Shown here: piece after piece, positions 52,385 through 64,000 of the stretch | How positions within the stretch are numbered: position 1 is the stretch's first letter | How the letters are laid out: every line of letters begins with the position of its first letter | Assembly (NCBI GenBank): GCA_024277255.1 | Contig: JAJRVQ010000024.1 | Coordinates: forward strand, 1 to 64,000 | DNA length: 64,000 nucleotides | Reading direction: 5' to 3' | Source: Acidobacteriota bacterium | GTDB taxonomy: Bacteria > Acidobacteriota > Thermoanaerobaculia > Multivoradales > SZUA-115 | Program-made: the position numbers and the translations under genes | The notes under the pieces: model-generated | The model's input: only the letters and a program-made list of their open reading frames with translations | What the model was told of the DNA's origin: nothing | The model's database searches: none

Positions 52385-52811
<427 letters not shown>

Positions 52812-52831
52812 CATCCCTAGGATACCACTCG

Positions 52832-55800
52832 CTAGCCATTGCAATGGATCAACAACCTGGCCAGGGGCATCACACGAGGTTCATAGATGAAACTCGTGTG
52901 GCTGCCGTCAACCCATTTGACTTGAAGGTCGCTGAAATAGGTGGACCAACCCAGTGTTGGCTCCTCGCCCATCTCTCGATGAACCGCTTCGTCACCGGCG
53001 CGAACCAGAAGTGCGTGGAGATCGAGAGGCGTTGGAACGTGTTCGCGCACCGCCCGCATCACTTCCTTGAAGACCAGCCACCGGCGGAGTAACTCCTCGC
53101 CTGAGAAATCGTTACGCCCCTGAGCAGACTGAGCGACAGCCGCAAGGAGGGTCGACAACCGGGTTTCTTCATCCAATTGCTCGAAGTTCGCTGGAAGCAC
53201 CGAGTTGCTTCCCCTGGCCTTCAGGCCAAGAGATCCGACGAAAGCCCGCTGTAACTCGGCGTCGCCCCAGGCCGGCATCCGCGCGGGAGTGAGTGTATCC
53301 AGAAGGACCAGCGACGCCACCCGCTGGCCCTCGGCACGAAGAATGCGGGCCATTTCCACCGCGATCACCCCGCCAACAGACCAACCGAGGATCCGGTAGG
53401 GGCCTTCGGCTTGATGACTTCGCACAGCGGCGACATAGCTGGCGGCCATCTCGACGACCGTTTTCGCGGGTTCGGTGCCGGCCACCAGGCCAGCCGCTTG
53501 CAGCCCAAGGACGGGACTCGCCGGCCCCAGAGCCGCAGCTAGGTCGGCGTAGCAAAGGACCTCTCCGCCCGCCGGGTGGACACAATAGCGAGGAGTTCCG
53601 TCCCCCCGACTCTGTATCTCGACCAGGATTGAACTGCTGGATGGACCACCCGCCTCGGCCGCTACCGCGCGCGCCAGCTCCGCGATGGTGTCGCCTTCGA
53701 ACAGCCGTGCCAGGGGCAAGCTGACACCGGTGCGCTGACGGATCTCCGACATCAGGCGCAAGGCGAGAATCGATTCGCCGCCGAGTTCGAAGAAACTCTC
53801 TTCGACCCCGATTTCCGGGCGCTTGAACAGCGCCGACCAGATCCCCGCCAGTTGCTTCTCCAGTGCGCTGCGGGGCGCGGTGTGGGTAGTCGCCGCGGCC
53901 GCGGGAGCGCAATGGCGCCGCGCCAAAGCACCTCGATCGATCTTCTGACTGGTCGTCCTTGGCATCGCATCGATCTCCACCACCGCCGAAGGCACCATGT
54001 AGTCTGGCAGCCGGCTGGTCAGCCGCCGACGCAAGGCCGCGGATTCAGGCAGCTCTGCGGCAGAGACGACAAAGGCGACCAACCGCGCCCCACCCCCGTC
54101 ACGCACCACGACCACCGCTGCTTCCTCGATCTCCGGCAAAGCCTGGAGAGTCGCCTCGATCTCGCCGAGTTCAATGCGGTATCCTCGAACCTTGACCTGA
54201 TCATCGATTCGACCGAGGAACTCCAGTTGACCGTCGTCGCGCCGGCGGACACGATCCCCGGTCCGGTAGAGGCGGCTCCCAGCTTCCAGAGAAGAGGGAT
54301 CAGGAACGAACCTCTCGGCGGTCAGCGCAGCTCGCGCCATATATCCACGCGCCAGACCGGTGCCCCCCAGGTACAGTTCACCGGGAATCCCGGCCGCCAG
54401 TGGATTGGCGAAACGATCCAAGGCAAAGGCTCGAGCGTTGGCGCGAGGCGCCCCGATGGGTACCTCGCTCCACCGGCCGCCGCCGTAGGTCGGATGTAAA
54501 ACCGGTTTGGTGTCCAAGAGGGCCTGCGTCGCGACCACGGTCGTTTCAGTGGGACCATAGGTGTTGATCAGGCGAACCCGGGGCGGAACAACTTCCATCC
54601 ATTGCACGAGAGTCTCCGCCCGCGCCTTCTCCCCCCCGATGATCACCAACTCGATCGATAGCGGCAAACGCAGCCCCTCGCGTTTCATGGCGACGGTCAG
54701 CTCCCTCCAGTAGGCTGTCGGCAAATCGAGTACGGTCAATGCGTACTGATGGCAGGCGTCCACGAACCGCGCCAAATCCAACATCGCGTCGTCGCGCAAC
54801 ACTAAGGTCCCACCCGCCAGCAGCGCTGGAAAGATCTCCTCGACACTCGTATCGAAGGCGATCGAAGCAAACTGAAGGACGCGGTCCCGGCGGCGAATTG
54901 GCCCGGCCTCGGCCGTGGCTAGAACGAAATCAACCATCGAACGGTGGGTGATCATCACCGCCTTAGGTAGACCGGTAGAGCCTGAGGTGTAAATCAGATA
55001 CGCCAGGTTTTCACTCGACATACGGGGCGCCTCGCGTTGCGCCAAGAATTGGTCACCGGGCGTGCCGAACTCCACACCGAGCTTGTCGAGCGCTATCACC
55101 TCCCGGGGGCCGTCCGGCTTTGCCGGTGAGTCGGAGTCTCGCCAGGTCGAGTCGGTAAGGACTAGTGACGCGCCGGAGTCATCGAGCATGAAACGCAACC
55201 GTTCGGCGGGAAGATCGGGATCAAGCGGAACATAAGCTCCCCCGGCTCGCAAGACGGCAAGTATGGCGGTAATCTGTGAAGTGGAACGACGGGCACGGAT
55301 CGCCACCCTCACTTCGGCGCCGACCCCCTTGCGGCGTAGCAACCGGGCTAAGCGGCCCACTCGCCGATCGAGTTGCCCGTAGGTGATGTGCAGCTCGCCC
55401 TCCACGAGTGCAATCGAGTCCGGCCATTCACTCCAGTTCGCCACGAGCCGCCGCGCCATTCCCAGTTCCGCGCCGTGGAATTCGACTTGTGTCTGGTTGG
55501 AAGCGATGAGCTGCTCGATCTCACTGGACAACATCAGCCGAAGATCTCCGAGCCGATCTTGCGGCTGCTGAGCCATCGAGATCAACACCGTACGCAACGT
55601 GGCGAGCAGCCGAACGGCCAGCGTACTGTCCAGGTAGTGGAGATCGTAGCCGAGGCGAAGGGTCCACGTCTCGGTCCCGGGCATCACCACAACGGTGATC
55701 GGATAGCTGGTGCGTTCGAACCCACCCAGCGCGATCTCCGAAGTCTCTTGGGCGTCGGTTGCCGTGGTCGCCGAAGTTACTTGGGCTGTTGAGGGAGTCT

Positions 55801-58800
55801 TGCGGGCGGCAGCTTTTCTTCTCACCGGTGCGGCGACCGGCGTGGTGGCCGACGGCGCATCGTCGTCAAAGCGAAAGGATAGGTCCGCAGGATAATTCTC
55901 GAAGACGACGAGCGACTCGAAAAGCATCCGGTTGGCCGCCACCTCGCTCCACCCTTGGACTTTCATCAGCGGGCTGTACTCGAACTCGCGAGCCGCTAGC
56001 TGACGATCCTGCAAGCGCTGGATCCACTCGCCGACCTGGGTCTCGGGCTCGACCCGAACGCGCACCGGCAATGTGTTGATGAACAAGCCGAGCATCGTCT
56101 CGATGCCCGGCAAGGGTGCCGATCGACCCGACACGGTAGCACCGAAGAGGACATCTTCTTGGTTGGCGACCCGGCTCAAAACGAGCGCCCACGCCGCCTG
56201 CACGATCGAGTTCTGGGTCACGCGGTAGCGGCTTCCCAGTCGCTGGAGAGCCTCGGCAGATTCCCCCAGCAAGCGGACTTCGACTGCCCCAAAGGACTCT
56301 GGTTGATCCGATCGGTTGATCACGGCGGCTTCAAGAGCTACCGAGGTGGGCTCGCGGAAACCGCTCAATTCACTGCGCCAGAATCTCTCGGCCTTGGCCA
56401 TATCCTGATCGAGATGCCAGGCAACATAGTCGCGGTAGGGCCGCCGTCTTAGTAGGGGCCTCGCCTGGCCCGTCGCGTAGCCTAGGTAGCGCTGGAATAG
56501 TTCGTTGTTGAGGATCGGCAAACTCCATCCATCGAGCAAGATGTGGTGATAGCTCCAAGTAAAGATGTAGGAGTCATCACTTGTGCAGATCAACGCCAGC
56601 CGCATCAAGGGTGGCTGCGACAGATCGAATCCACGCTGACGATCTTCTTCCTGGTGGCGCGCGAACATCTGTCCAAGCTCTTCGCGTGGCGAGGTGCGCC
56701 AGTCGAGGAACTGCCAGGGAACCTCGACCTCCTCGTGGACGATCTGCAACGGTTCGTCGAGATTCTCCCAGTGGAACGAGGTTCGCAGGATCGGATGGGC
56801 GGCGACCATGTCTTTCCACGCCTCGATCAACGCCTCAATTTCTAGCGCCGAATCGAACCGACGGACGCTCTGCTGATGGTATGCATAGGATGTTGGAGCA
56901 TAGATGCGGAAGAAAAGCATTCCCTGCTGGGTGGGCAGTAGAGGATAAATACTTTCGATTCCGCGCCGGCCGGCGACCACTCGTTGTAGCGTCGCCGAGT
57001 CGAGCCGTGCGAGGGGAAAATCGGAAGGGGTATAGCCGCCACTATCGCTCTGGCAGCAGTGAGCGATCAACTGACGCAGCTTGGAACAGATGAGTTCCAG
57101 TAGCCGGCGCGCCGTCTCCTCGCTGTGGGTCGCCTCGCCATAACGAAGCGCGAGATGGAAGTGTCCGCCCTCGATCCGCCCGTCAAACTCCAAGAGATAC
57201 CATCGCTTCCCGCGCGGGCTGTAGCCATTGCCCGCCGGCTCCGGGGCAAAGCTGAAACGGACCGTAGTATCTGCATCGCCCGCCGGAGATACCGTCGCGG
57301 GTGGTGCCGGCGGCGCAACGATGGCCAGCGAATTCGCCGTGGTTGGAGGCGCGCCCACCGATTCGTTCCTCGTGGAGTTGCCGGTTGGTTTCGACTGCGC
57401 CATCCGATCCAACTGGCCCAGGTAGTTGAAGCTGACCTGGGCTGACGGCAACTCGGCAAGCCGCCGCCGCACCGGCTCAGCGGCAAGATAGCGCAATACT
57501 CCAAAGCCCAGCCCCTTACCCGGCACCGAGCGCAGTTGCTCCTTGACGGTCATCAAAGCCTCACCGGGAGAACTCCCTGCGCCAGGGTCGAGAAGGACCG
57601 GGTAGATGCTGGTGAACCAGCCGAGAGTCCGCGAAAGATCGATCTCCTCGAACGGTGCTTCGCGACCGTGACTCTCCAGATCGATCAAGACCGCTCCGCC
57701 GGCCAACTCGCGTAGCGCGCCACTGACCGCGGTCAACAGAACATCGTCGATCCGCGTCCGGTAGGCCCTGGGTACCTCTTCGAGCAAAGCCACGGTCTCC
57801 TCAGCGGAGAGTTTCAAATTGATCAGACGGGTCGTGCTTTGCAGGTTCTCTCCCCCCCGGCCATCCAGCGGAAGCTCGACGGCTCGGCCACGCTCCAGGC
57901 CAGTCCAAAAGCTCACCTCGTGGCGCAGTTGCGAGGAGTCGGTCGCATACTCCACCAGCCGGCGAGCCCAGGATTGGTAGGAACTGCTCTTGGGCGGCAG
58001 AGCGTCCGCCGGCGCCCCATCCTCGGCTCGGCTCGCCTCGTTGGCCATCTCCAGGTAGAGCTTGGGCAGGTCCTCCAGCAAGATCCTCCACGAGACCCCG
58101 TCCATTGCCAGGTGATGCATGACCAGGAGAAGTCGTGCCCCTTGTTGGATTCCTAGGTTGAAGAGGATACAGCGGAAGATCGGTCCCTTTTCGAAGTTTA
58201 GGCTGGCGTGAGTCCGCTCTACCAACCTCCACATCGCCGCACCGCGAGCGGCGTCGGCAAGGGAGGACAAGTCGATGGACAGAAACTCGCCACCGGGGCC
58301 CTGCGGCGCCAGAATCCGTTGTTCCACGCTCCCCGATGCGGTCACCTCGAAGCGACTGCGCAGCACGTCGTGATGAACCATGAGCTTCTCTACCACCCGG
58401 CGCATCACCTGATGGTTGGGAACCGGCCGGGCGGCGAGGAGGAAAGCTTGGTTGAAATGGTGAGGCTCGGCGCGATGCTGCTCGAAGAACCAGTGTTGGA
58501 CAGGAGTCAGCGGTACCGAGCCGACGACCGCGCCCTGCTGTGCAACAACCTCGGTGGCACTACCAGCGACGGCCGCCAGCTCCGCGATCGTATTGTGGGT
58601 GAAGACCTGGCGTGCGGTCAGCTGCAGGCCAGCTCGTGCCGCCAGGGAGACCACCTGCAAACTGAGGATCGAGTCTCCACCGAGTTCAAAGAAGTTGTCA
58701 TGGACGCCGATCTGTTCGCGGCGAAGAACCTGCCGCCAAATAGTGGCGAGCGCTTCCTCCACCTCGTCGCGGGCGGCGACGAAGAGTTCAGCGCTCTCCA

Positions 58801-61800
58801 GCCGTTCCTCCTCCCCCGACGGTAGAGCCTTTCGATCCACCTTGCCATTGGGCGACAGAGGCAGCCGCGGCAGCGGGATGAACAACGATGGCACCATGTA
58901 CTCGGGCAACCGGAGCGCCAGCCGCTCGCGTAACTCTCGTAGTGTTGGCAGTTCCCGATCTTGCTCGGCGACCAGGTAGGCGACCAATCGCTGGCCGTCG
59001 GAACCGTCCTCGCGCACCAGAACCACCGTCTCGTGGATCCCGTCCAGGGCCAAGATAGCCGCCTCGATCTCCCCCAGTTCGATGCGCAGGCCATGGATCT
59101 TGACTTGAAAGTCGATCCGGCTCAGAAACTCCATCGCACCGCCCGGCCAACGGCGAACCAGATCACCGGTCCGATAGAGGCGCGAGCCGGCCTCGCCAAA
59201 GGGGTTGGGAACGAACTTCTCCGCGGTAAGAGCTGGTCGCTTCCAGTAGCCCCGCGCCAGCCCCGTGCCACCGATATGAAGCTCGCCGGGCACGGCGACC
59301 GGCACCGGCTCTCCACGTCCGTCGAGCAGGTGAACCTCTAGGTTGGCGATCGGCTTGCCGATAGGTACCGTCGCCGCCTCGCGGCAAGCCTCGATGCGCT
59401 CTACCGAGGCAGGAGAACCATCACCGAAGCAGGACCACTCGGTGACATCGACGGCAGCTTCGGTCGGGCCATACAGATTGTGCAGTTCGCAGGAGAGACG
59501 CTCCGCGAAGCTCTGCTCCAGATCTCGCGGCAGAGCCTCACCGCTGCAAATCACCCGCCGTAGCGAGGTGCAGGCCGAGAGGTCCGGTTCGGTCAAAAAG
59601 ATGCGCAGCATCGACGGCACGAAATGCAAGGTGGTGACGCCGGTGGAAGCGATCAGATCGACCAGGTAGAGACTATCTTGATGGCCGCCGGGTCGCGCCA
59701 CGACCAGGCGAGCACCCACGGCCAAGGGCCAGAAGAACTCCCAGACCGAGACGTCAAACGAGTACGGAGTCTTCTGCAAGACCACGTCGCTCTCGTCGAG
59801 TGGGTAAGCTTCCTGCATCCAGAGAATCCGGTTGAGGATCGCCGCGTGCGAGTTCATGACCCCTTTGGGCTGGCCGGTGGAACCCGAGGTGTAGATCATG
59901 TAGGCCATGCCCTGCCCCGCCACCGGTAGGTCGAGATTGGCCCCGTCGTAGCGAGCGACCTCGTCCCATTGCGTATCGAGCGCGACTTGGCGGGCCGAGG
60001 TTGCAGGCAACTCGACGAGTAGCTTCGCCTGCGTCAACAGGACGCCGACATCGCCGTCACGCAGCATGAACGCCTGTCGTTCACCAGGGTGCGAGGGATC
60101 GACCGGCAGGTAGGCTCCCCCCGCCTTGAGGATGGCCAACAGGGCGATCACCAACTCCAACGAGCGCTCCGCCGCGACGGCGACCAACGTTTCGCCGCCC
60201 ACCCCAAGCGACCGCAAGTAGCGGGCCAGTTGGTTGGACCGAGTGTTTAGCTCGCCATAGCCAAGCCACTCTCCCGCGAACTCTACCGCCTTGCGCTGCG
60301 GATGGCGCTGGGCCTGCTCCTCGAACAGCTGCACCAAAAAGGGCTCCTGAGGGTAGGCCACAGCGGTCGAGTTCCACTCCACTACCAGCTGCCGTCTCTC
60401 CGCCTCCGGGAGCATTTGAAGGCTGCCGAGGTGAATCTCCTCGCTCTCGCACATCGACTGCAAGAGGGTCGAGAGATGGCCCAGCATGCGCTCGATGGTG
60501 ACCGCGTCAAAGCGGCGTTCGTCGTACATCACACCGAATCGCAAGAGGGAGCCCAAACTCGCCATCAGGGTCAAGCCGAAGTTGGTCTGCTCGAAATTAT
60601 CGACCTCGGCAACGCTGAAGCCACCGCTGCTGCGCTCGACCGCTTGCTTGCGCACCGTGGAGTCGACCGGGTAGTTCTCAAACACCACGATGCTGTCGAA
60701 GAGCGGCGTGCCACCTGGAAGATCACTCCACCCCTGCACTTCGCTCAAGGAGCTAAACTCGTATTGCCGCATCTCGGCTTGGGCGACCTGGAGGGCTCCC
60801 AACCAGCTGCCCAGCTCGCTGTCGTCGGCGGTCTCGACCCGCGACGGAAGGGTGTTGATGAAGAGGCCGACCATCGACTCCACTTGATCAAGATCCGCCG
60901 GGCGACCGCTAACGGTGACCCCAAAGAGCACATCGGTGGTAGCGCTGTAGCGGGCTAGCAGAATCGCCCAAGCTCCTTGAACCAGTGTGTTGGCGGTCAG
61001 CCTTTGGCGCTGTGCGCTGGCTTTCAGCCTCTCGGTCTGAGCTAGCCCCAGCACTTGCCGACTCTCCACTGGAGCCACCTCGCCGCCGCTACCGTCCGCC
61101 CACTTCGGTCTATCCACCACCAGTGAAGTCGGAGCGTCGAGACCACCGAGAACACGCCGCCAATACGCGCGCGCGGCGTCCGCGTCCTGCTCGGACAACC
61201 ACCGGATGTAGTCCCTGTAGGGTCGAACCGCCGGCAATACAGCGACCTCGTTGTTGAGTTGAGCTTGGTAGAAAGCGAAGACCTCCTTGTACACCAGGTG
61301 CATGCACCAACCGTCGAGGAGCAAATGATGATGGCTCCAGATCACCCGGTAGCGCTCCTCGGCGAAGCGCATGACGCGCAGCCGCATCAGCGGCGCCTTG
61401 GACGGATCAAAGCCAGCTCGTCGATCCGCGGCGAGAAAGGCGGCCAGGTGCGCCAGCTGCCGCTCGCTGCTCAGACCGCGTAGATCCTCCTCGGCAAATG
61501 GCACTTCCACCGTCTCCAGAACCACCTGGAGCGGAGTCTTGACGCGCCGCCACTCAAACTGTGTGCGCAGGACGGCATGTCGATGCGCCACCTGTTGCCA
61601 CGCCCTTTGGAAGGCACCCACATCGAGCGGCCCGTCGAAGGCGCAGGCCAATTGCATGTGATACGCCCCAGCGGTTGGCGCGAAGACGGCGTGAAAGAGA
61701 ATGCCATGCTGCAAAGGTGCCAACGGATAGAGATCGGCCATGCCGTCGTGGTGACGCGACAGCTCGTCGAGCACCGCTTGGTCGAGGCCGGCCAGCGGAA

Positions 61801-64000
61801 AGTCCGACGGGGTGAAGCCTCCCACTGCCGGCTGGCGGCAGTGCTGCACCAGTGCTTCGATCGCCCGTTTCAAGGCGGTACCGAGCCGCTCGATGGTTGA
61901 ACGCTGATGCAGATTGCGGCTGTAGAGTAGATTGAGCTGGAGACAACCAGCCTCCACCAGGCCGACCACATCGAGCACATGGCGACGCAGCGCGCGCGGG
62001 CTGATCGGGGGGCCGGTGTTCTCGGGGGCTCGATGCACTCGGACCGCCGGCAGCGCAGCGTCGTCTCCCTTGGCCGTCGCTGTGGTCGACTGCCGCCCAA
62101 ACTGACCTAGATAGTTGAAGCTGATTTCCGGATGGCGCAAGGCGCCCAGCCGGCGCGACACCTCCGGGTCCGGCGAGAGATAGCGCAGGATGCCGAAGCC
62201 GACGCCGTTGTGAGGCACGGCCCGCAGCTGTTCTTTGATCGTCTTGAGTTCTTCGCCCGGCCCGTCGGTCGCCGCAAGGTCGAGGAGAAGCGGAAAGACG
62301 CTGGTAAACCAACCCACGGTGCGCGACAGGTCTACGTCGTCTAGGATCGATTCCCGGCCGTGCCCTTCCAGATTGATCAGTACGTTCGACTCGCCCGTCC
62401 AGTCGGAGCAAGCGCGGGCCAGGGCGGCAAGAAGAGCATCGTTGATCTGGGTGTGATATTTGGGTGGCACCTCGTGCAACAGGGCCCGCGTGGTCTCGGC
62501 GTCCAGCCGTACAGCCACGACCCCGGCCGATTCTTCGGTGTTCTCCCCTCCCTGATAGTCGACCGGCAAGGCCGCCACCGACGACTGCTGCTGAATCCAG
62601 TACTCAAGCTCGCGGCGTAGCCGCTGCGAACCGGCGTAGTGGGAGAGACGTTGTGACCAGCGTTGTACCGAAGTGGTCTTGGCCGGCAGCTCCAACTCTT
62701 CGGCCAAGGGGATAGAGCTACCGGGTGGTCGCTTCGCCAGTTGAGTCGCAAGCTGCTGCAGATCGCTTTGCAGGATGCGCCAAGAAACACTGTCAATAGC
62801 GAGATGGTGCACCACCCAGAGCAGCCGAGTCGAGCGTTCATGGCCGAGGGTGACATGGAGGATCCTCAACAAGGGGCCGGCGATCGGGTCGAGCGATGCT
62901 TGAACTCGCGTCGCTAGCTGCTGCAGGGCCAGGCTATGCAGCCGCTCATCGAGACGCGAAAGATCGAGCTGTGCGAAGGGCAATCTCTTGCCGGTCAAAG
63001 CGCTCACCGGCTCCAGGTACTGGTGCCACCTCTTGGGTCCTTCTCCTTGCTGCTGATACGAGAACCGCAGGCGCAACGCGTCGTGGGCCGCCAGCAGGCG
63101 ATAAACCATGACGCGAACAGCACCGGCCTTCAGAGCAGGGGTCAGCAGCAGATAGTGTGCCTGGTTGTAGTGGTGGAGATCGACCGGATCGGCCTCGAGG
63201 AACCAGTGCTGAATGGGCGTTAACTTAACCGGCCCCACCACCTCCCCCTGCTGGGCCTGAATGCGCTCCAGCGAACCGGCAACCGCCGCCAGTTCCGCGA
63301 CGGTCTGGAATTGAAAGATCTGCCGAGGTACCAGTGTCAAACCGGCGCTGTTGGCTCGGGCGACAATTTGCAGTCCCATGATCGAGTCGCCCCCCAGGTC
63401 GAAGAAGTTGTCGTCCCTTCCGACTCGCTCAACCCCGATCACATCGCCCCAGATTTCAGCCAGCAGCCTCTCGGACGGCGTCTGGGTAGTGCTGTAGTTC
63501 TCCGCCGTGGTACCCCGCGACCGCCCCGGCGCCGGCAAGGCGCGCCGGTCGACCTTGCCGTTGACAGTGAGTGGCAGACAACTCAAAGGAACCACGACCG
63601 CGGGCACCATGTAGTCCGGAAGAGTCGAGGAAAGACGCTCGCGGACTTGGCGCAGCGACAACTCGGATTCCCCCTCAACCATCACCAAATAGGCCACCAA
63701 GCGGTTCCCGCCAGAGCCGTCTTGGCGCACCATCACCACCGCCTCTCGAACACCCGGTAGGGCCACCAAAGCGGCCTCGATCTCACCGAGTTCGATGCGA
63801 AAACCCCGAACTTTGACCTGGTTGTCGATTCGCCCCAGGTAAGACAGCTGCCCGGTTGCGATGTAGCGCGCCAGGTCGCCGGAACGGTAGAGCCTCTCTC
63901 CCGGTACGTCGGTGAAGGGATCGGGCACGAAGCGCTCAGCGGTCAGCGAGGGCCGTGCCTGGTAGCCGCGCGCCAACCCGGGGCCACCGATCCACATCTC
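52832..64000 (-). CDS. Nonribosomal peptide synthetase, C-terminal part: (A)-T-E / C-A-T-E / C-A-T-TE
   Basis: About 3,720 codons remain open to the window edge; the true start lies outside. Counting from the Met at 63997: partial A domain (1-160, LGRIDNQVKVRGFRIELGEI), T1 (Ser205 in LGGDSI), E1 (256-720; HHLAIDS, EGHGRES, RTVGWFTSVFP), C1 (750-1190; HHLLLDG), A2 (1210-1730), T2 (Ser1776), E2 (1828-2315), C2 (2335-2830; HHILLDG), A3 (2840-3360), T3 (Ser3409), TE (3455-3721; Ser3540 in GWSVGG, Asp3567, His3700). The A2 specificity residues read DVWHISLVDK, near-identical to serine-activating codes. A3 reads DTEDIGTVVK, which I cannot assign. The product should include D-configured residues at two positions and D-Ser. 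Confidence 0.93.
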   Translation of the reverse strand, partial: EMWIGGPGLARGYQARPSLTAERFVPDPFTDVPGERLYRSGDLARYIATGQLSYLGRIDNQVKVRGFRIELGEIEAALVALPGVREAVVMVRQDGSGGNRLVAYLVMVEGESELSLRQVRERLSSTLPDYMVPAVVVPLSCLPLTVNGKVDRRALPAPGRSRGTTAENYSTTQTPSERLLAEIWGDVIGVERVGRDDNFFDLGGDSIMGLQIVARANSAGLTLVPRQIFQFQTVAELAAVAGSLERIQAQQGEVVGPVKLTPIQHWFLEADPVDLHHYNQAHYLLLTPALKAGAVRVMVYRLLAAHDALRLRFSYQQQGEGPKRWHQYLEPVSALTGKRLPFAQLDLSRLDERLHSLALQQLATRVQASLDPIAGPLLRILHVTLGHERSTRLLWVVHHLAIDSVSWRILQSDLQQLATQLAKRPPGSSIPLAEELELPAKTTSVQRWSQRLSHYAGSQRLRRELEYWIQQQSSVAALPVDYQGGENTEESAGVVAVRLDAETTRALLHEVPPKYHTQINDALLAALARACSDWTGESNVLINLEGHGRESILDDVDLSRTVGWFTSVFPLLLDLAATDGPGEELKTIKEQLRAVPHNGVGFGILRYLSPDPEVSRRLGALRHPEISFNYLGQFGRQSTTATAKGDDAALPAVRVHRAPENTGPPISPRALRRHVLDVVGLVEAGCLQLNLLYSRNLHQRSTIERLGTALKRAIEALVQHCRQPAVGGFTPSDFPLAGLDQAVLDELSRHHDGMADLYPLAPLQHGILFHAVFAPTAGAYHMQLACAFDGPLDVGAFQRAWQQVAHRHAVLRTQFEWRRVKTPLQVVLETVEVPFAEEDLRGLSSERQLAHLAAFLAADRRAGFDPSKAPLMRLRVMRFAEERYRVIWSHHHLLLDGWCMHLVYKEVFAFYQAQLNNEVAVLPAVRPYRDYIRWLSEQDADAARAYWRRVLGGLDAPTSLVVDRPKWADGSGGEVAPVESRQVLGLAQTERLKASAQRQRLTANTLVQGAWAILLARYSATTDVLFGVTVSGRPADLDQVESMVGLFINTLPSRVETADDSELGSWLGALQVAQAEMRQYEFSSLSEVQGWSDLPGGTPLFDSIVVFENYPVDSTVRKQAVERSSGGFSVAEVDNFEQTNFGLTLMASLGSLLRFGVMYDERRFDAVTIERMLGHLSTLLQSMCESEEIHLGSLQMLPEAERRQLVVEWNSTAVAYPQEPFLVQLFEEQAQRHPQRKAVEFAGEWLGYGELNTRSNQLARYLRSLGVGGETLVAVAAERSLELVIALLAILKAGGAYLPVDPSHPGERQAFMLRDGDVGVLLTQAKLLVELPATSARQVALDTQWDEVARYDGANLDLPVAGQGMAYMIYTSGSTGQPKGVMNSHAAILNRILWMQEAYPLDESDVVLQKTPYSFDVSVWEFFWPLAVGARLVVARPGGHQDSLYLVDLIASTGVTTLHFVPSMLRIFLTEPDLSACTSLRRVICSGEALPRDLEQSFAERLSCELHNLYGPTEAAVDVTEWSCFGDGSPASVERIEACREAATVPIGKPIANLEVHLLDGRGEPVPVAVPGELHIGGTGLARGYWKRPALTAEKFVPNPFGEAGSRLYRTGDLVRRWPGGAMEFLSRIDFQVKIHGLRIELGEIEAAILALDGIHETVVLVREDGSDGQRLVAYLVAEQDRELPTLRELRERLALRLPEYMVPSLFIPLPRLPLSPNGKVDRKALPSGEEERLESAELFVAARDEVEEALATIWRQVLRREQIGVHDNFFELGGDSILSLQVVSLAARAGLQLTARQVFTHNTIAELAAVAGSATEVVAQQGAVVGSVPLTPVQHWFFEQHRAEPHHFNQAFLLAARPVPNHQVMRRVVEKLMVHHDVLRSRFEVTASGSVEQRILAPQGPGGEFLSIDLSSLADAARGAAMWRLVERTHASLNFEKGPIFRCILFNLGIQQGARLLLVMHHLAMDGVSWRILLEDLPKLYLEMANEASRAEDGAPADALPPKSSSYQSWARRLVEYATDSSQLRHEVSFWTGLERGRAVELPLDGRGGENLQSTTRLINLKLSAEETVALLEEVPRAYRTRIDDVLLTAVSGALRELAGGAVLIDLESHGREAPFEEIDLSRTLGWFTSIYPVLLDPGAGSSPGEALMTVKEQLRSVPGKGLGFGVLRYLAAEPVRRRLAELPSAQVSFNYLGQLDRMAQSKPTGNSTRNESVGAPPTTANSLAIVAPPAPPATVSPAGDADTTVRFSFAPEPAGNGYSPRGKRWYLLEFDGRIEGGHFHLALRYGEATHSEETARRLLELICSKLRQLIAHCCQSDSGGYTPSDFPLARLDSATLQRVVAGRRGIESIYPLLPTQQGMLFFRIYAPTSYAYHQQSVRRFDSALEIEALIEAWKDMVAAHPILRTSFHWENLDEPLQIVHEEVEVPWQFLDWRTSPREELGQMFARHQEEDRQRGFDLSQPPLMRLALICTSDDSYIFTWSYHHILLDGWSLPILNNELFQRYLGYATGQARPLLRRRPYRDYVAWHLDQDMAKAERFWRSELSGFREPTSVALEAAVINRSDQPESFGAVEVRLLGESAEALQRLGSRYRVTQNSIVQAAWALVLSRVANQEDVLFGATVSGRSAPLPGIETMLGLFINTLPVRVRVEPETQVGEWIQRLQDRQLAAREFEYSPLMKVQGWSEVAANRMLFESLVVFENYPADLSFRFDDDAPSATTPVAAPVRRKAAARKTPSTAQVTSATTATDAQETSEIALGGFERTSYPITVVVMPGTETWTLRLGYDLHYLDSTLAVRLLATLRTVLISMAQQPQDRLGDLRLMLSSEIEQLIASNQTQVEFHGAELGMARRLVANWSEWPDSIALVEGELHITYGQLDRRVGRLARLLRRKGVGAEVRVAIRARRSTSQITAILAVLRAGGAYVPLDPDLPAERLRFMLDDSGASLVLTDSTWRDSDSPAKPDGPREVIALDKLGVEFGTPGDQFLAQREAPRMSSENLAYLIYTSGSTGLPKAVMITHRSMVDFVLATAEAGPIRRRDRVLQFASIAFDTSVEEIFPALLAGGTLVLRDDAMLDLARFVDACHQYALTVLDLPTAYWRELTVAMKREGLRLPLSIELVIIGGEKARAETLVQWMEVVPPRVRLINTYGPTETTVVATQALLDTKPVLHPTYGGGRWSEVPIGAPRANARAFALDRFANPLAAGIPGELYLGGTGLARGYMARAALTAERFVPDPSSLEAGSRLYRTGDRVRRRDDGQLEFLGRIDDQVKVRGYRIELGEIEATLQALPEIEEAAVVVVRDGGGARLVAFVVSAAELPESAALRRRLTSRLPDYMVPSAVVEIDAMPRTTSQKIDRGALARRHCAPAAAATTHTAPRSALEKQLAGIWSALFKRPEIGVEESFFELGGESILALRLMSEIRQRTGVSLPLARLFEGDTIAELARAVAAEAGGPSSSSILVEIQSRGDGTPRYCVHPAGGEVLCYADLAAALGPASPVLGLQAAGLVAGTEPAKTVVEMAASYVAAVRSHQAEGPYRILGWSVGGVIAVEMARILRAEGQRVASLVLLDTLTPARMPAWGDAELQRAFVGSLGLKARGSNSVLPANFEQLDEETRLSTLLAAVAQSAQGRNDFSGEELLRRWLVFKEVMRAVREHVPTPLDLHALLVRAGDEAVHREMGEEPTLGWSTYFSDLQVKWVDGSHTSFIYEPRVMPLARLLIHCNG
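52836..52847. repeat. 12-bp perfect palindrome at the NRPS/rnpB junction
   Basis: CCATTGCAATGG overlaps the last NRPS codons, about 25-36 nt upstream of the rnpB 5' end. The rnpB promoter must lie in this area, with TTGCAA and TATCCT (14 nt apart, too short for a good sigma70 match) as the only hint. Confidence 0.45.

Follow-up and report, generated by a model that had tools for sequence, protein, structure and literature searches.

The NRPS gene that runs along the minus strand of the DNA analyzed here (the window; 64,000 nucleotides, bases 1-64,000 of contig C186, which totals 130,974 bp) very probably encodes the terminal subunit in an NRPS-PKS hybrid assembly line from an uncultured acidobacterium, a line that appears to differ within the genus at a C-A linker. 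The window carries the 3′ part of this gene, 3,722 of its 4,581 codons; the whole gene lies at C186:52,832-66,577 (minus strand), with its start near 66,577, and forms an open frame of 4,581 aa with the domain order C-A-T-E / C-A-T-E / C-A-T-TE. Upstream of it, five more collinear NRPS or NRPS-PKS genes extend to the contig end, and the C186 locus as a whole contains 17 A domains (one truncated at its N-terminus) and four KS-AT-KR-ACP modules, which amounts to an assembly line of ~21 modules spread over 78 kb of a single strand (Table 1).

Within the window, the reading frame at 52,832-64,000 is free of stops for 3,722 codons, and a search of this frame for frameshifts found none, in agreement with the first-pass annotation, whose domain order of (A)-T-E / C-A-T-E / C-A-T-TE is borne out by the open frame and by Pfam and NCBIfam. 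Pfam identified four condensation-family stretches (two E and two C), AMP-binding domains, three AMP-binding C-terminal domains, three carrier domains and one thioesterase, with E-values between 1e-24 and <1e-300 that exclude chance matches, and the NCBIfam calls agree. The HHxxxDG, YTSGST and LGG[DE]S motifs are present in all three modules of the terminal gene, the type I thioesterase at its C-terminus (PF00975, E-value 1e-24) carries GxSxG in the form GWSVGG, and a motif scan found all of its catalytic motifs intact. The C-A-T-E / C-A-T-E / C-A-T-TE order is a textbook arrangement, and the NRPS machinery of the terminal gene is ordinary. On its right-hand side the locus is bounded by rnpB, which lies outside it and is followed by genes such as those for LD-carboxypeptidase and RecG. 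The NRPS stop codon precedes rnpB, which is read from the same strand, by 24 bases (52,385-52,834), and this adjacency is kept in a member of the same genus as far as the contig of that congener reaches.

Table 1. Features of the NRPS-PKS locus and its right-hand boundary, in coordinates of contig C186, listed in the direction of transcription.
Feature	Coordinates	Strand	Description
Upstream gene, at least 8,790 aa	104,605-130,974	-	cut C, half A + T, six C-A-T, then KS-AT-KR-ACP
Upstream gene	101,120-104,695	-	C-A-T
Upstream gene	86,400-101,186	-	three C-A-T, KS-AT-KR-ACP
Upstream gene	74,926-86,472	-	two C-A-T, KS-AT-KR-ACP
Upstream gene next to terminal gene	66,581-75,292	-	C-A-T, KS-AT-KR-ACP
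Terminal NRPS gene, 3′ part	52,832-64,000	-	open frame without stops; dN/dS 0.16 versus congener
A1 adenylation, C-terminal portion (full domain extends to 65,041)	63,530-64,000	-	code DFWNIGMVHK, predicted threonine
T1 carrier	63,287-63,472	-	LGGDS
E1 epimerisation	61,826-63,229	-	HHLAIDSVSW; EGHGRE read by eye; TIGR01720
C2 condensation, predicted D-donor type	60,383-61,738	-	HHLLLDG; clade of C-after-E domains
A2 adenylation	58,820-60,331	-	code DVWHISLVDK, predicted serine
T2 carrier	58,574-58,762	-	LGGDS
E2 epimerisation	57,356-58,519	-	HHLAMDGVSW; ESHGRE read by eye
C3 condensation, predicted D-donor type	55,508-56,956	-	HHILLDG; contains low-complexity stretch; C-after-E clade
A3 adenylation	53,921-55,432	-	code DTEDIGTVVK, predicted basic residue (Arg/Lys/Orn)
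T3 carrier	53,672-53,863	-	LGGES
Type I thioesterase	52,835-53,635	-	PF00975; GWSVGG; by eye, Asp of LLDTLTP and His of GSHTSF
rnpB, bacterial class A RNase P RNA	52,385-52,807	-	RF00010, E-value 6e-87

The pocket residues of the three A domains were taken by alignment to GrsA (PDB 1AMU, residues 231-526). For A2, this alignment returned the same ten residues, DVWHISLVDK, that had previously been read by position, with numbering begun at the ATG (second codon in the frame), so that both routes confirm the pocket. The earlier assignment of A2 to serine agrees with the published Ser codes DVWHLSLVDK and DVWHMSLVDK, from which A2 departs at position 299 alone, one of the two variable positions of the Ser code (PMC12283262); judged by this list, the predicted specificity of A2 fits the serine code DVWHxSLVDK. 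The A1 code is a published Thr code, found in cyanopeptolin OciA-A2 (PMC2533009), and A1 is predicted to activate threonine. A literature search for the exact A3 code gave no match, and its near relatives in the anabaenopeptins, DVEDIGAIEK for Arg and DVEDIGGVEK or DVEDIGGIEK for Arg and Lys (PMC5311044), make a basic residue (Arg/Lys/Orn) the best call for A3. The two C domains located behind an E domain group in a single clade with a support of 1.0, in a tree built without a reference DCL set; the clade also holds the congener orthologues, one further C domain of the congener, and the leading C domain of a gene in a probable second NRPS (described below), which stands behind a degenerate E-like domain. 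Such a grouping is what D-donor C domains would be expected to show (PMC1894796). The E motifs, this clade and the PF00975 thioesterase support the two epimerising modules and the TE release proposed in the first-pass annotation. For the product, a tail of D-(allo)Thr - D-Ser - Arg/Lys/Orn is predicted, with the TE as the releasing domain.

The upstream part of the synthetase, which had been described as missing, is indeed absent from the window; contig C186, however, carries the remainder of the gene together with the five upstream genes, which contribute 14 A domains and four PKS modules. Extension beyond the window retained the NRPS end as first read and placed it in a hybrid, with KS-AT-KR-ACP modules collinear with the NRPS modules and with A1 and A3 assigned to threonine and a basic residue by prediction. 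Three of the four PKS modules contain the KS Cys-His-His residues, the AT motifs GxSxG and HAFH, the latter of which we take to be of the malonyl type, and the KR Tyr. In the remaining one, which belongs to the 8,790-aa protein (C186:104,605-109,338), the KS and ACP are intact, the AT reads GFGLG and has no Ser, and the KR has no Tyr; the AT and KR steps of this module are probably inactive. The first module on C186 (128,881-130,974) has an A domain without its N-terminal half, and the next C domain has HRMVCDD instead of HHxxxDG, which would reflect genuine decay or else a join made during assembly. Because of these two degenerate-looking modules, strict collinearity upstream of the terminal gene, which is an assumption, may fail. 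The upstream end of the assembly line is absent from C186.

Several of the upstream pockets correspond to published codes: DAWQFGLIDK to Gln and, probably, DVQFIAQVVK to Pro (table in PMC2866473), and DAFFLGVTFK to Ile/Val (PMC2533009). Two further codes are serine-like, and other codes include DPRHFVLRAK, DALFLGHVVK and a group of the form DVxxxARxGK. The codes DVILFARIGK, DVCSYARVGK and DVLAFARIGK, found on C186 outside the window, share a common pocket type with Arg at position 322, for which an acidic substrate would be a guess.

When 59 genomes of the order were compared, the end of the terminal gene had a close orthologue only in a congener (taken as Acidobacteria bacterium SZUA-115), on contig C82 (QIHU01000319). 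The two proteins share 76.7% amino acid identity over 4,049 codons with a dN/dS of 0.16, which indicates purifying selection on the terminal gene after the two species separated. All 12 domains occur in the same order in the orthologue, which is followed by the start of rnpB up to the contig limit; its A2 and A3 codes are identical, and its A1 code, also of Thr type, departs at one residue (DFWNVGMVHK). Its own first C domain, in contrast, is not orthologous to that of the terminal gene.

This difference has a sharp position. Whereas A1, A2 and A3 show 75%, 83% and 80% identity, respectively, to their C82 counterparts, the first C domain of the terminal gene is far less similar to that of C82 and shows 74% identity to a different congener gene, here called gene X, located on contig C63. 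Gene X encodes C-A(Ser)-T-KS-AT-KR-ACP and lies directly after the counterpart of the terminal part of the 66,581-75,292 gene; another gene, Y, begins next. Windowed identity changes partner around amino acids 478-498, where the C domain ends and the C-A linker starts, and the best single split, at C186:65,130 (477 informative sites), was equaled in 0 of 2,000 shuffles, a value to be taken as a guide only, as the sites are non-independent. An orthologue of the A-T-KS part of gene X was sought in the present genome and none was found, the best match being 52%; modular KS domains number four here versus five and one partial in the congener. From the sharp partner switch, it seems that at least one, and probably two, aminoacyl-PKS genes just upstream of the terminal gene distinguish the genus-mates, the congener having gene X and probably gene Y as extra genes between the C82 orthologue and the orthologue of the next upstream gene. 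The simplest reading of the alignments is that gene X, and probably Y, was lost here or gained in the congener through exchange at the C-A linker. We regard it as somewhat probable that whole aminoacyl-PKS units have been naturally gained or lost between the genus-mates by crossover in the C-A linker, with one C domain being followed by a Ser acceptor in one case and a Thr acceptor in the other. Natural recombination has been surveyed, with a reported tendency for the native C-A linker to stay intact (PMC8097286), which would make a crossover in the linker mildly unusual.

Repeated NRPS modules offer another explanation, in which both the switch at the linker and the half A domain where the contig ends would be artefacts of assembly. 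C186, C75 and C2 end within C domains of 89-96% shared DNA identity; in C75, a stop falls within a C domain and reading frames are interrupted at C domains; and both of the compared genomes are metagenome bins, this one with 8% contamination, so that a misjoin could, in principle, account for the crossover. Near the switch, however, protein identity to the partner that is not followed is only ~40-60%, which leaves no long exact repeat evident for a misjoin, and no fragment orthologous to gene X occurs anywhere in this bin. Taken for both features, this explanation is unlikely; if only the half A domain at the end of C186 is considered, an artefact is quite possible.

The truncated first A domain, the HRMVCDD motif and the PKS module without AT Ser and KR Tyr would also suit a decaying or silent locus whose terminal gene is no longer used, but the dN/dS of 0.16 since the split, the intact motifs throughout the terminal gene, and the intact KS, AT and KR motifs of the other three PKS modules make this quite improbable. 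It is scarcely credible that the locus is a self-contained three-module NRPS of unrecorded type with a short peptide product. Taken alone, the terminal gene does encode a three-module protein that is complete and has a TE of its own, but it starts with a normal elongation C domain instead of a loading module and directly follows a collinear gene that ends in a PKS-ACP, with five such genes upstream.

As the terminal subunit of a hybrid line, the protein would receive at C1 the acyl chain of the last upstream subunit, which ends in KS-AT-KR-ACP. Threonine would be added and epimerised, followed by serine and then Arg/Lys/Orn, and the TE would free the chain by hydrolysis or cyclisation. Upstream, each aminoacyl unit with a working malonyl KS-AT-KR module behind it would give a statine-like β-hydroxy-γ-amino acid, and lines within the genus would diverge by crossover at the C-A linker. 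A literature search for a cluster with these pocket codes found none; given ~21 modules and no matching cluster in the literature searched, a new hybrid peptide-polyketide product is likely.

Other contigs of the same genome carry related modules. C2 probably belongs to the C186 line, since congener contig C128 places the C2 orthologues beside those of the first C186 modules, while a tie between C75 and the C186 line is only suggested, by a 92% repeat and by related Gln/Pro modules. C75 opens with a fatty-acyl-AMP-ligase-like (FAAL-like) loading module; this start, together with the C-domain repeats at contig ends, means that the line in its full form may make a lipopeptide. C142 and C158 were also considered as parts of the C186 line, which is probably ruled against by their orthologues being joined on congener contig C166; this linkage points to a second, separate NRPS. 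The second NRPS ends in an E domain beside an MFS transporter, with no TE seen. Only a single MbtH gene (C130) and a single PPTase gene (C151) were found, both off C186. Giant single open frames were observed in two relatives of the same taxonomic order, one of 18,228 codons with 17 A domains and a TE (G009:C18:4,562-59,245; L057-L059) and one of 17,425 codons with 16 A domains and a TE (G017:C18:32,849-85,123; L061-L064); in one internal module, no C domain was detected. Kolossin synthetase, at 16,367 aa, is shorter than both. From the giant NRPS genes of relatives, the present genome may tentatively be placed in the UBA5704 lineage.

If the proposed exchange is real, it would show that NRPS units can be swapped at linkers in nature as well, and the genus pair would suggest the sites at which NRPS-PKS lines are naturally cut and joined, a point of relevance to their engineering. 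The nearest solved structures by sequence are those of PvdL and linear gramicidin synthase LgrA (PDB 9lcp and 6mfz), of which the PvdL chain aligns to residues 175-1815 of the window protein (T-E-C-A-T); both systems have other products and other substrates. The suggestion that this NRPS end is of unrecorded type is not supported, as its module order is ordinary and large acidobacterial NRPS-PKS loci, which place the locus in an already known kind, have been published (PMC8041624; PMC6355793; PMC9723581). Compared by description, one similar system is the largest BGC of the GEM catalogue, from a UBA5704 acidobacterium (PMC8041624), which likewise combines acidobacterial NRPS/PKS chains of extreme length with a cluster-rich bacterium and differs in having 62 modules in three chains and in coming from soil. 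The acidobacterial loci from marine biofilms (PMC6355793), also compared by description, resemble it as long NRPS/PKS systems, the longest being 127 kb and one genome holding 14 loci, and belong to other species; Ca. Angelobacter represents Acidobacteria with very large NRPS/PKS loci (PMC9723581).
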